Source of the DNA: Bacillota bacterium
Lineage (GTDB): Bacteria > Acidobacteriota > Terriglobia > Acidiferrales > UBA7541
Length of the DNA: 32,985 bases
Reading direction: 5' to 3'
NCBI GenBank assembly: GCA_023511565.1
Contig: JAIMBE010000011.1
Span: 1-32,985 of the forward strand
A program made the translations under genes and the position numbers. The notes beneath the pieces were generated by a model. The model was not told the DNA's origin. It saw only the letters and a program-made list of their open reading frames with translations, and did no database searches. Positions 21,594 to 25,844 of the stretch are shown piece by piece (within the stretch, counting starts at the first letter, position 1; each line of letters opens with the position of its first letter).

Positions 21594-22250
21594 TCAGTGC
21601 TTTGGTGTGTGAATGGAGATTTCGACTTCCGCGCCCTCAACAAGGTCCAGCGGTTCGGCTGGATGCAGCGCTCCGTGGGACCAGCGTGCCAGGATGCGGC
21701 GCGGGAGAGGCGAAGCGGACTGCACCGATCCAGATGACGCGGCCCGCGGTGACGTGCGGCGAGCCGTGGGCGGCAGCGAACCCAGACGGTCGAGCGCCTG
21801 GTTGGCCAGTGTGTCAGCGGCGGAATTCAGCTCGCGGGGGATGTGTTCGACGGAAAAATACTCCAGTTGCCGAGCGAGACGCTGGGCCTGCTCGAACAGC
21901 GGACGCAGCTTGGAATCTTTCACTTTGTAGCGCCGCTGCATTTGCCGCACGAGCAGCTCCGAGTCGCTGCGCACGGTCAGTCGCCGGATTCCGTGGGCAA
22001 GCGCGAAATCGAGTGCCGCAATCAGCGCGTAGTACTCCGCTTCGTTGTTCGTCTTGATGCCGATGTAGCGGGACAGCTGGTTCGACTTGCTGCCGTCGGG
22101 CCGATAGAAGATCACAGCATAGGCGGCCGGGCCGGGGTTGCCACGCGAAGCCCCATCCAGGTAGGCGCTGTGGAGATCGGTGGGCGAGTCGGGTTCGCGG
22201 AACAGACGGCGGGTTGCCGGCAGCGGTGCGGTCTTTTTCGCGGCAGTCAT
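21594..22250 (-). CDS. RNase H-fold protein with AF2212/DUF104-like C-terminal tail
   Basis: 218 aa. Residues 27-155 form an RNase HI domain with catalytic residues D32 (AYLDGASRGNPGPAAY), E72 (KTNNEAEYYAL), D96 (RSDSELL) and D146 (NSAADTLANQAL), so RNA:DNA hybrid cleavage is likely. A low-complexity linker runs to about 183. Residues 185-213 (RILARWSHGALHPAEPLDLV, then EGAEVEISI) resemble the AF2212/DUF104 antitoxin-like beta domain, an unusual addition. It is probably not the sole RNase HI and may act in primer removal or an unknown system. The gene overlaps the upstream zinc-ribbon gene by 4 nt (ATGA), so the two form an operon. Confidence 0.85.
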   Translation of the reverse strand: MTAAKKTAPLPATRRLFREPDSPTDLHSAYLDGASRGNPGPAAYAVIFYRPDGSKSNQLSRYIGIKTNNEAEYYALIAALDFALAHGIRRLTVRSDSELLVRQMQRRYKVKDSKLRPLFEQAQRLARQLEYFSVEHIPRELNSAADTLANQALDRLGSLPPTARRTSPRAASSGSVQSASPLPRRILARWSHGALHPAEPLDLVEGAEVEISIHTPKH

Positions 22251-22993
22251 GGAGTGGAGGAGTGCGCAACACCGGCCGCGTCGTGTTCGGCGCAGTAGAG
22301 GATGCGCGTGCAGGATTCGCAGTGGAAGATTTGGTCGTTGTCGGGTCGGCGCAGCTCCTGATAGACCTGGGGGCGAATGCGCACGCGGCAGGCCGAACAG
22401 GTTTCCTCACGCACTTCGGCCAGTGCGACGCCGCCGTGCTTGCGGGCAATTTTCTGATAGAGGTTCAGCAGGTCGGTCGGCAGCACCCGCAGGACGCGTT
22501 CGCGCTCGTCCGCCAAGGCGGCGAGTGCCCGCTCGAGATTCACCTGTTCGGCTTCCAGCTGGCTGCGTTCGGCGGCTGCGGAAGCTTCGGCTGCGCGCAG
22601 AGTGCGTTCCGCTTCGCGGAGTTGCCGCTCCAGTTCTTCGGCGGCCACCATGCGTTCCAGCAGGCGATCTTCCGCACGGGCCAGCTCGATTTCCGCCTGC
22701 GCGATTTCGTGCTGCAGGGCCCGGTAGGCTTCATTGCTTTTGACTTCGGCGGTCTGGTCTTTGTACTTGCGGATGCGCTGCTTCCACTGCTCGACGTCCA
22801 GTTCGAGCGTCTTGCGATCGGTCAGGCTTTTGGTGAGCGCGGCCCGGGAATCGTCCAGCAGCTTCCGCGCAGCCGCGAGCTGCCGTTCCAGTTCCGCAAA
22901 GCGCGCCGGAAACGACGAAAGCTGCTGACGCAGTTCCGCGGCGCGCCGATCCACGCTCTGCAGTGCGATCAAATGCTTCAGGCTGGGGTGCAT
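22247..22993 (-). CDS. Coiled-coil protein with C4 zinc ribbon (CT398/DUF164-like)
   Basis: 248 aa, cytoplasmic. Residues about 5-175 are a long coiled coil rich in Glu, Arg, Ala and Leu heptads. Residues 197-235 form a C4 zinc ribbon, C-x2-C (ETCSACRVRIRP) and C-x2-C (HCESCTRILYC). This is the architecture of the CT398/YbfC-like zinc-ribbon family, found next to RNase H in many bacteria; function is not well established, perhaps nucleic-acid or flagellar-associated. ATG 22993 lies 9 nt after an extended -10 TGC-TAGAAT. GAGGA abuts the ATG with no spacer, so a leaderless start is likely. Translation is coupled to the RNase H gene. Confidence 0.85.
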   Translation of the reverse strand: MHPSLKHLIALQSVDRRAAELRQQLSSFPARFAELERQLAAARKLLDDSRAALTKSLTDRKTLELDVEQWKQRIRKYKDQTAEVKSNEAYRALQHEIAQAEIELARAEDRLLERMVAAEELERQLREAERTLRAAEASAAAERSQLEAEQVNLERALAALADERERVLRVLPTDLLNLYQKIARKHGGVALAEVREETCSACRVRIRPQVYQELRRPDNDQIFHCESCTRILYCAEHDAAGVAHSSTP

Positions 22994-23342: not shown

Positions 23343-23861
23343 TCAGGATGCCTTCTTGTGGCGGCGGATGTAGTCGAGTGCAAACTCGTACAGGTTCTGG
23401 CTGCGCAGGCCGATCTTGCGAGCTTCCCGTTCTGCGTCCTCGAGGTTCCAACCATCGCGCAGCACGCGCCGGATCATCCAGAAGGCACCGACACGATTGG
23501 CCGAGCCACAGTGGATGAAGGCCGGCTGGTTGGCTGGGTCGTCGGTCACGCGCAGAAATTCGTCCACTTGCTCGGGCTTCGGGTCTGCGGTGGCGACAGG
23601 AATATGGATGTAGCGCAGACCGAGCTCGCGCACCTTGGCTTCTTCCTCGGCGGCATTGTACTCCGTGGGTTGCCGCAGGTTGATCACGGCGCGGATGCCT
23701 TGCTGTTTGAGCGCAGCCAGCTCTTCCAGAGTCGGCTGCCCGCCGGTGCAGACCTTTTCGTTCACCCGCAGGAAATTGCGAATCGAGCTCGGATCTTGTG
23801 CAGCAAGAATTCCGGCAAAGAACATCGCAGTCCCGAACTGCCACAGAACGTGTCGTTTCAT
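23343..23861 (-). CDS. Exported dual-specificity-type phosphatase (DSP-PTPase/DUF442-like)
   Basis: 172 aa. A signal peptide covers residues 1-21 (VLWQFGTAMFFAGILAAQD). The domain starts NFLRVNEKVCTGGQPTLEEL, where C-TGGQPT and INLRQPTEYN are typical of the DUF442/beta-lactamase-hydrolase-like phosphatase group. The signature loop is FIHCGSANRVGAFW: a Cys followed by four residues and Arg, the short P-loop of this subgroup rather than the classical C-x5-R. Substrate unknown. ATG 23861 has a strong GGGGGAGGAAGC site. It follows the selenoprotein gene on the same strand, separated by 340 bp and its own promoter with a dyad. Confidence 0.82.
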   Translation of the reverse strand: MKRHVLWQFGTAMFFAGILAAQDPSSIRNFLRVNEKVCTGGQPTLEELAALKQQGIRAVINLRQPTEYNAAEEEAKVRELGLRYIHIPVATADPKPEQVDEFLRVTDDPANQPAFIHCGSANRVGAFWMIRRVLRDGWNLEDAEREARKIGLRSQNLYEFALDYIRRHKKAS

Positions 23862-23897
23862 GCTTCCTCCCCCAGCTGGGTCTGCCGCAGGCTGCTG

Positions 23898-23934
23898 TTT
23901 TCTATATTTAGAAAAGACGTCTCCAGGCGGACAA
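23898..23934 (-). promoter_or_regulatory. Promoter with AT-rich operator-like dyad upstream of the phosphatase gene
   Basis: Minus strand: -35 TTGTCC (23934-23929), 18-nt spacer and -10 TAAATA (23910-23905). A perfect inverted repeat, TTTTCTA-N4-TAGAAAA (23898-23915), sits on the -10 box and stands out as AT-rich in this GC-rich DNA. It is a good candidate for a repressor binding site; no known regulator consensus is matched with confidence. Confidence 0.5.
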
Positions 23935-24201
23935 CCGTTTCTTGGAAACCCGGCTCCCGAACGGCCTTCGCTGGGCCTGATGGTATCTTCCTTTTGCCTC
24001 ATCCGCTCCCGATGCTGCAGTTCCTTTCCAAGCGGGCAGGAAGACCGACAGAGGCACTGCCCTCGTGTTGCCCCAGTTCGGCAACCTGCTTCACTGAACA
24101 GAAGTGCGGCTACCCCTGCCCACCCTGCACAGGTGGACGCTGCGGGGCCAGCCTCCAGCCTGCACAACAACAAACCTGCAAATCGGCGCGGGACCCTGGT
24201 T
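23935..24201 (-). other. Non-coding remainder of the 340-bp gap between phosphatase and selenoprotein genes
   Basis: The gap 23862-24201 holds the phosphatase promoter, dyad and leader in its first 73 bp. In the remaining stretch I see no convincing gene, RNA or repeat. A minus-strand frame runs through it in phase with the phosphatase but is Cys/Arg/Gly-rich and not protein-like. Confidence 0.4.
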
Positions 24202-24816
24202 TCATTCCTTCCGGTCGGTCGAACCGGTGGCGGGGACACCGGCTTGGTCGAGGGCTTCCAGAATCTGTTTGCCTTTCGGGCGGACCTGGTAGCTTTCGGT
24301 CAGATTGCGCCAGCGAACTACACCCTGCGGGTCGATCAGGAATTCTGCCGGCCGAGCAATATCGGAGCTGCCCGCCCCACCTTTGTGCACCAAGTCGTAG
24401 CGGCGGATGACGTCCAGCTTTTCGTCGGAGAGGAACAGGTAGCTGTACCCCTGCTTCGCGGCGTGTTCTTTCGTGATGTGCGGCGGGTCCACGCTGATGG
24501 CCACGATTTTTACGCCCCGGGATTCAATCTCCTGCTTGTGTTCTTCGATGCTCCGCAACTCGGAGTTGCAGTACGGTCACCAGTAGCCGCGGTAGAACAC
24601 CAGCAGAACCCACCGCCCCCTCCCGTCGGAGGCTTTCAGCAGGTCGGAGAGTTGTACCAAGTTGCCGTCGGTATCGGGCAGAGTGAACTCCGGAGCCTGG
24701 TCGCCGACTTTTGGAGCGTTCGCCGACCGAGGCAGTTGCTGTGCCGCTGCGACCATGACGAGTACTCCCATCAGGACAGCGAAGGCAACCCCACGACGTT
24801 TGACCCAGGTCTGCAT
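24202..24816 (-). CDS. Exported peroxiredoxin, probable selenoprotein (in-frame TGA at codon 80)
   Basis: 204 codons if TGA 24579-24577 is read as selenocysteine. Residues 1-25 are a Sec signal peptide (VAFAVLMGVLVMVAAAQQ). An AhpC/TSA thioredoxin-fold domain follows: VGDQAPEFTLPDTDGN, then WVLLVFYRGYW-U80-P-Y-C83-NSEL, then VKIVAISVDPP, FLSDEKLDVIRRYDLV and PAEFLIDPQGVVRWRN. In this family the residue after RG-x-W is the peroxidatic Cys; here it is TGA, and both sides are in one frame with good protein sequence. A SECIS-like hairpin lies 16 nt downstream. It would reduce peroxides outside the cytoplasm. ATG 24816 has GAGGGG upstream. Alternatives are a TGC-to-TGA mutation or sequencing error giving a pseudogene. 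The selA, selB, selC and selD genes are not in the window. Confidence 0.85.
24551..24565 (-). promoter_or_regulatory. SECIS-like stem-loop downstream of the UGA
   Basis: On the mRNA, CTCCG and CGGAG form a perfect 5-bp stem closing the pentaloop AGTTG. The loop begins 16 nt after the UGA and has G in its second position. This fits published bacterial SECIS rules: apical loop about 16-37 nt from UGA, G in the first two loop positions. A competing 6-bp fold, GCAACT-CCG-AGTTGC, overlaps it (24569-24555). Confidence 0.6.
24577..24579 (-). other. Candidate selenocysteine codon (TGA)
   Basis: In-frame TGA at codon 80 of the peroxiredoxin, replacing the peroxidatic Cys codon of the W-C-P-Y-C motif. 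The resolving-type Cys is retained three residues later. Confidence 0.8.
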
Positions 24817-24957
24817 GGTCCCCTCAAAGGGTCTTTCTCCCCCAATAGATGGGCACACGAGCGAAAGGTTTCAGATTATCCGGATTTTCGACCCTTCCCG
24901 GCTGCCAGCACGGGTGTGGAGTCGGTGCTGTGTTCGCCACGTCTGCGGCGTTGTCGC

Positions 24958-25031: not shown

Positions 25032-25844
25032 ATGATCCTCCGCCCGCGCAGGAATACAGGAATGTCTCTGGTGCTGATGGTGTGCCTTACAGCGCCAACG
25101 CCACTTTCCTCGCGGCAAGGCGCGCAACCCGCAGCCCGTGCGGGGGAAGTGGAGCGTGTGATTCCAGACGTGCACATCGAGCGCGAGGCAGACACCCGCC
25201 GTGCACAGTTGGTCGCCGAGCCGCGGACGCCGGTTTTCTGGCAGGATACGTTGCACACGGCCGCCCGGGCCCGCGCGCGGGTGCGGCTGGAAGATGGCTC
25301 GACTCTGAACCTGGGTTCCAGCTCGAGCCTGTGCGTCGTGCAACATGATGCTGCGGGGCAGCGCACACAAATCGAGCTCCAGTACGGCCGAATCCGTAGT
25401 CAGGTGGTGAAGTTGGCTCAGCCGGGTGCCGAGTTCCGCGTTCGCACCCCGGTGGGAACTGCGGGTGTGATCGGCACGGATTTCTTTCTGGCGTTTGAAG
25501 ACGGCGTGCTGAAGTTGCTCGTTTTCGAAGGCGTTGTGGAGCTGTGTAACCTGGCTGGAGACTGCATCCGGGTCGAGCGCGGGCAAACTTCGACGTTGCA
25601 ATCCTCCCCTTCGTCCAGTGCAGCCGTGCCCCCGCCGGAGCTGCCCCGGCTGGTTTCTCCCGCCGAATCCCTGCAGGCTGTGGAAAGCACTCAGGTCGAG
25701 CCGGGTCCAACGGCCGGCGGGGGGAAAGGCCCGGGCTGGTGGGTGGGTGTGCTCGGGTTCGCCGCTGTTGGTGTAGCGGCCATTGTGCTGGCCACACGCT
25801 CGACCACACAACCGCGACAACAGGGCGGGAACCAAGACCCCTGA
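25032..25844 (+). CDS. FecR-domain protein, exported and C-terminally anchored
   Basis: 270 aa. An N-terminal signal-type segment (GMSLVLMVCLTAPTPLSSRQ) follows an Arg-rich start. Residues about 65-180 form a FecR beta-helical domain: ARARVRLEDGSTLNLGSSSS, then VRTPVGTAGVIGTDFFLAFE and LLVFEGVVELCNLAGDCIRV. A Pro/Ser-rich linker leads to a C-terminal transmembrane helix at about 235-255 (WWVGVLGFAAVGVAAIVLAT). Classical FecR proteins are anti-sigma regulators, but no sigma factor or TonB receptor is adjacent, so this is one of the orphan FecR-domain surface proteins. GGAGCAAGG precedes ATG 25032. It is divergent from the selenoprotein gene and followed by a hairpin. Confidence 0.83.
   Translation: MILRPRRNTGMSLVLMVCLTAPTPLSSRQGAQPAARAGEVERVIPDVHIEREADTRRAQLVAEPRTPVFWQDTLHTAARARARVRLEDGSTLNLGSSSSLCVVQHDAAGQRTQIELQYGRIRSQVVKLAQPGAEFRVRTPVGTAGVIGTDFFLAFEDGVLKLLVFEGVVELCNLAGDCIRVERGQTSTLQSSPSSSAAVPPPELPRLVSPAESLQAVESTQVEPGPTAGGGKGPGWWVGVLGFAAVGVAAIVLATRSTTQPRQQGGNQDP

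Follow-up and report, generated by a model that had tools for sequence, protein, structure and literature searches.

A predicted exported UxxC selenoprotein with a peroxiredoxin-like fold encoded in an Acidobacteriota genome

A minus-strand gene in a draft MAG of the Acidobacteriota appears to encode an exported selenoprotein with a UxxC redox motif, in which the UGA at codon 80 would be decoded by means of a SECIS element and which would act as a peroxiredoxin-like thiol:disulfide oxidoreductase rather than as a peroxiredoxin proper. We assign this reading a probability of roughly 80%. The gene (204 aa, AhpC/TSA fold) occupies positions 24202..24816 of the window, i.e., the whole stretch of 32,985 nucleotides from contig JAIMBE010000011.1 (assembly GCA_023511565.1) that was analyzed, and was delimited from the reading of open reading frames (ORFs), Pfam, and an AF2 model.

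Gene structure and genomic context

Two ORFs on the minus strand (24858..24577 and 24558..24202) lie in the same frame, with no frameshift between them in the ORF listing. Read from the start ATG at 24816 to the terminal TGA (24204-24202), the gene is interrupted by a lone in-frame TGA (24579-24577), and the AhpC-TSA Pfam match of the read-through protein extends across it (residues 37-169, E 1.8e-33, 115.5 bits against a cut-off of 26), which bears out the preliminary description of this DNA as containing one gene split into two ORFs. The read-through protein also matches the Redoxin Pfam, and PF00578 is matched by all 38 family members. The recoded residue, number 80 of the read-through protein, stands in the context VFYRGYWUPYCNSEL, where the UGA (24577..24579) encodes the first residue of the UxxC motif; the motif WUPYC and the AhpC-TSA match both agree with the earlier assignment to a UxxC protein of the AhpC/TSA type. 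A possible ribosome binding site, GAGGGG (24820..24825, minus strand), recognized in the sequence only, is adequate and not “good”, as it had been called, being just 3 nt from the ATG.

Residues 1-25 (24742..24816) comprise KRR, a hydrophobic stretch with a Kyte-Doolittle maximum of 2.65, and AAA ahead of QQ, and coincide with an N-terminal helix in the AF2 model (residues 2-25). The signal peptide proposed earlier is upheld by these features in the form of a predicted signal peptide or membrane anchor, from which we infer that the protein is exported. The next gene downstream (23346-24062, minus strand) encodes a DSP/BLH-type phosphatase (PF22741, PF04273), with a link to the selenoprotein that is only putative, and the divergent neighbor (25032-25841, plus strand) encodes a FecR-domain protein. 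No conserved operon partner was found in an all-against-all comparison of the flanking genes; a CT398/zinc-ribbon gene that recurs at 17 loci is located in the window at 22250-22993, non-adjacent to the selenoprotein gene. As no neighbor is conserved enough, no partner, whether reductant or substrate, can be named from context. No second credible case emerged when the window was scanned for further redox motifs interrupted by TGA and the matches were judged by eye; the others had no recognizable redox motif, and several fell in shadow frames or at the ends of genes.

Recoding of the UGA and the SECIS-type hairpin

The machinery for selenocysteine incorporation is complete in the source genome, a draft MAG of 2.6 Mb (90.8% complete, 235 contigs). 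The search for selA, selB, selC, and selD that had been proposed recovered SelA (E 6.4e-170), SelB (E 1.7e-113), SelD (E 1.3e-109), and a tRNA-Sec that scores above the gathering score and has a TCA anticodon. SelD (L055, contig C211 of G000) is itself a selenoprotein with UGA at the AAGUAAK site (AAGUAAKLSPG). In-frame TGA codons occur in 4 of the 11 AhpC-TSA matches above cut-off in this genome, namely the window gene and three peroxiredoxins. These three Sec-peroxiredoxin paralogues are of the TxxU type, their catalytic residue being encoded by UGA (TPGUNHE, TPGUTTE, and TGGUTREM), and are found on contigs C51 (L003), C96 (L004, minus strand), and C4 (L005) of G000. Sense sequence continuing after an in-frame UGA would also fit a reassignment of UGA to a standard amino acid such as Trp, or a regulated true stop with a short product, but such a reading is contradicted by the complete Sec machinery, by the use of UGA as the gene's own stop codon, by the location of the paralogue UGAs at catalytic Cys rather than Trp positions, and by selection on the downstream half. 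We reject UGA as a Trp codon and consider this explanation as a whole extremely improbable.

When 84,980 species genomes were scanned with patterns that omit residue 80 and thus do not favor U over C, 280 relatives were recovered, the best 80 of which, examined taxonomically, belong to the Acidobacteriota and Verrucomicrobiota together with a few MAGs labeled as other groups. The nearest relative comes from Terriglobia bacterium HOT.MAX.039 (78% identity). Homologues had been expected to carry C or U at residue 80, and codon 80 is indeed TGA in 83 of 84 non-duplicate orthologues and TGC in the remaining one, a count that covers the closer relatives, with the 200 weaker ones of the 280 outside it. 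Such position-specific conservation of TGA among orthologues is far beyond chance. A separate draw of 396 genomes from the phylum, which shares some genomes with the first orthologue set, gave TGA at all 19 loci besides the window's own. The close homologues among 61 relatives have TGA at residue 80 within the motif WUP[YF]C, and more distant AhpC/TSA relatives include Cys forms (L035, L037).

Between the window gene and the orthologue L059, dN/dS is 0.14 before the UGA and 0.17 after it, and synonymous changes are scarce immediately 3' of the UGA. Judged from these ratios, the downstream half is under purifying selection, which is in keeping with the intact C-terminal half that had been described. 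Of the outcomes that had been named as counting against a selenoprotein, a missing Sec machinery and frameshifts did not materialize, and the relatives have TGA. A pseudogene or a sequencing error, in which a Cys codon (TGC/TGT) had mutated to or been misread as TGA, might be suspected from the draft state of the MAG with its 235 contigs and from the appearance of the gene as two ORFs. However, the same codon is TGA in 83 of the 84 non-duplicate orthologues from independent assemblies, the dN/dS after the TGA is low (0.17), a SECIS-type hairpin is present, and a frameshift is absent; we rejected this explanation as refuted by the orthologue data and leave it only a minimal probability. On these comparative grounds, and as the preliminary description had it, this is a genuine selenoprotein gene with UGA80 recoded as Sec.

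The hairpin (CUCCG-AGUUG-CGGAG; 24551..24565, minus strand) begins 12 nt downstream of the UGA, inside the coding sequence. Its loop AGUUG has 5 bases with G at the second position and is closed by CUCCG/CGGAG, and 16 nt separate the UGA from the apical loop, a spacing that we take to fit the range of the bSECIS model. Each of the five stem pairs is present in no fewer than 80 of the 81 distinct orthologue sequences, and in a subgroup UCC/GGA has changed to CUC/GAG on both strands, a compensatory switch of a double pair that represents one event on the tree. The loop sequence requires the Leu codon TTR, and Leu is encoded by TTG or TTA at the loop in 77 of 81 sequences versus 18.5% over the rest of these genes. 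With the protein sequence taken as fixed, a single sequence would contain the exact 15-mer by chance with a probability of ~0.0009. For a single sequence, any SECIS-like hairpin within range has a 5.5% chance, and single-sequence folding revealed no unusual fold stability of the region (z = +1.33), so that the case for the hairpin rests on its conservation. By that measure it is preserved at the RNA level and is of the bacterial SECIS type.

In the single Cys (TGC) orthologue (L031, G040) the hairpin is gone and Leu is encoded by CTG, and the genome retains SelB; this orthologue could represent a Sec-to-Cys replacement without loss of the Sec machinery. A minority subclade with M/LSELQGLQ (L032, L149, L151, and L153-L155) has another hairpin, CUGCAA-GGU-UUGCAG, with its loop 24 nt after the UGA. 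The relatives also contain a second family, RSADWUPYCKGQL and near variants, with UGA at the same motif position (L036, L039, L040, L043, L044, L047, L048, and L051), of which L035 and L037 are the Cys forms, and a third family, RGHWUPFCLRQL, with UGA likewise at the N-terminal motif position (L038, L045, and L046).

Active site and proposed function

In the AF2 model, which is confident (pLDDT 88.5), Sec80 immediately precedes a helix formed by residues 81-92. The closest solved structures are the peroxiredoxins Bcp, AhpE, and PrxQ, with ResA within the top 50. Alignments to solved peroxiredoxins place U80 on the Thr/Ser of TxxC and the invariant second motif residue, Cys83 (24568..24570, minus strand), on the peroxidatic Cys, and alignment to the genome's own TGGU Sec-peroxiredoxin paralogue puts U80 on Thr and Cys83 on the peroxidatic Sec. 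Comparison with the same paralogue aligns Pro156 with the conserved active-site Arg of peroxiredoxins; in all 38 sequences this Pro is invariant, as is the Arg that sits one residue earlier (Arg155), and Arg155-Pro156-Ala157 (24346..24354, minus strand) marks the cis-Pro position. According to an atlas of the thioredoxin fold, the two positions are Cys and Pro in the thioredoxin/ResA type versus Thr and Arg in peroxiredoxins (PMC2757866), and both motif position 80 and Pro156 are thioredoxin-like and invariant in the present family. Two features of peroxiredoxins proper are absent: the Thr/Ser located three positions N-terminal to the catalytic Cys/Sec, U80 occupying the Thr site, and the active-site Arg at the thioredoxin cis-Pro position, which is replaced by Pro156. 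Because the Thr and Arg positions are thioredoxin-like, the preliminary statement that the TGA sits exactly at the peroxidatic Cys was wrong in detail, Cys83 taking that place. Its term “UxxC peroxiredoxin” holds as regards the motif and the AhpC/TSA fold and fails as regards a peroxiredoxin proper; with a thioredoxin/ResA residue pattern, “peroxiredoxin” describes the fold, not a demonstrated activity.

Sequence and comparison suggest that SelB and Sec-tRNA(Sec) would decode UGA80, aided by the SECIS hairpin in the coding sequence. The product would have a thioredoxin fold in its peroxiredoxin/ResA variant. Sec80 would lie at the N-terminal end of the active-site helix, Cys83 would follow a turn later, and the domain, if exported, would face the periplasm in a secreted or membrane-anchored form. 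Sec80 would then be the attacking selenolate on an oxidized substrate, either a protein disulfide or a peroxide, and Cys83 would resolve the intermediate to a Sec80-Cys83 selenenylsulfide, which could be regenerated by a periplasmic thioredoxin-like or DsbD/CcdA-type reductant.

Since the closest solved folds (Bcp/PrxQ/AhpE) are peroxiredoxins, the same selenoprotein could also serve mainly in peroxide reduction, as a periplasmic selenol peroxidase with Cys83 as the resolving residue. The AhpC-TSA and Redoxin matches are in line with such a role, as is the likeness to GPx, in which Sec takes the N-terminal motif position (UxxT; PMC13188914), but Sec and Pro stand where peroxiredoxins have Thr and Arg (PMC2757866) and the top NCBIfam score, although below cut-off, is to ResA, a thiol-disulfide oxidoreductase. 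A UxxC motif with a thioredoxin-type Pro instead of TxxC with Arg argues against a peroxiredoxin proper and for a peroxiredoxin-like thiol:disulfide oxidoreductase, and on these residues we favor the oxidoreductase over the peroxidase, to which we would give about one chance in three.

Comparison with known families

The orthologues may form an uncatalogued exported selenoprotein subfamily in the Acidobacteriota and Verrucomicrobiota, largely from MAGs of soil and groundwater, that as a rule uses Sec, with Cys as a rare exception, and has a conserved SECIS hairpin of its own, a proposal that we hold at slightly less than even odds. No description of such a subfamily in either phylum was found in the literature covered, to which subscription journals mostly did not belong. 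If the proposal is correct, it points to a redox role in the periplasm that Cys cannot adequately fill, and it would help to account for the retention of the Sec machinery in these lineages. The gene also suggests that Acidobacteriota make wider use of Sec than would appear from the few selenoproteins described in the literature covered. A nearly Sec-only exported redox enzyme in two phyla would make a good test case for Sec over Cys outside the cytoplasm. Annotation routinely splits UGA-containing genes, no NCBIfam model recovers the window gene, and the SECIS is regular enough in the family to serve in finding and annotating the remaining members.

Several known families share part of these features. 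Sec-peroxiredoxins (Prx/PrxU) have the same fold and a Sec in the active-site loop, but those proper have TxxU (PMC13188914), whereas the window protein carries its Sec three residues earlier and is without TxxU and the active-site Arg; against the PrxU model (NF040737) it scores 51 bits, the cut-off being 270. ResA/TlpA proteins share a CxxC-type motif, a Pro at the cis-Pro position, and an N-terminal hydrophobic helix, and ResA/TlpA gives the best NCBIfam score (60 bits, under the curated cut-off of 170); the window protein differs in having Sec for Cys, a peroxiredoxin-like RGYW context, and a structure nearer to Bcp/AhpE. The SelL-related redox protein model (NF040769) is related by profile (E 4.8e-15, 55.6 bits against a cut-off of 120). 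Altogether 20 NCBIfam families matched below, and none above, their curated cut-offs.

The closest likeness is to the “Prx-like thiol:disulfide oxidoreductase” (UxxC/UxxU), a listed family of predicted selenoproteins comprising UxxC proteins with PF00578 (PMC13188914, PMC1088965, PMC2398784), which shares the AhpC-TSA domain and has UxxC replacing TxxU. As the window protein has the listed features, PF00578 and UxxC, it is to be placed, by sequence, in this known predicted type. The known family has many Cys homologues, e.g., 2,740 Cys versus 225 Sec homologues for “Prx-like 1” of the GOS selenoproteome (PMC2398784), whereas the family of the window gene has almost none; the window protein is further set apart by its predicted export and its Acidobacteriota/Verrucomicrobiota lineage, in a comparison made by description and not with the reference WP_010940744.1. 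What appears to be new is that the protein is reached by no NCBIfam model above cut-off, is predicted to be exported, hardly ever has Cys in place of Sec, and occurs in this lineage.
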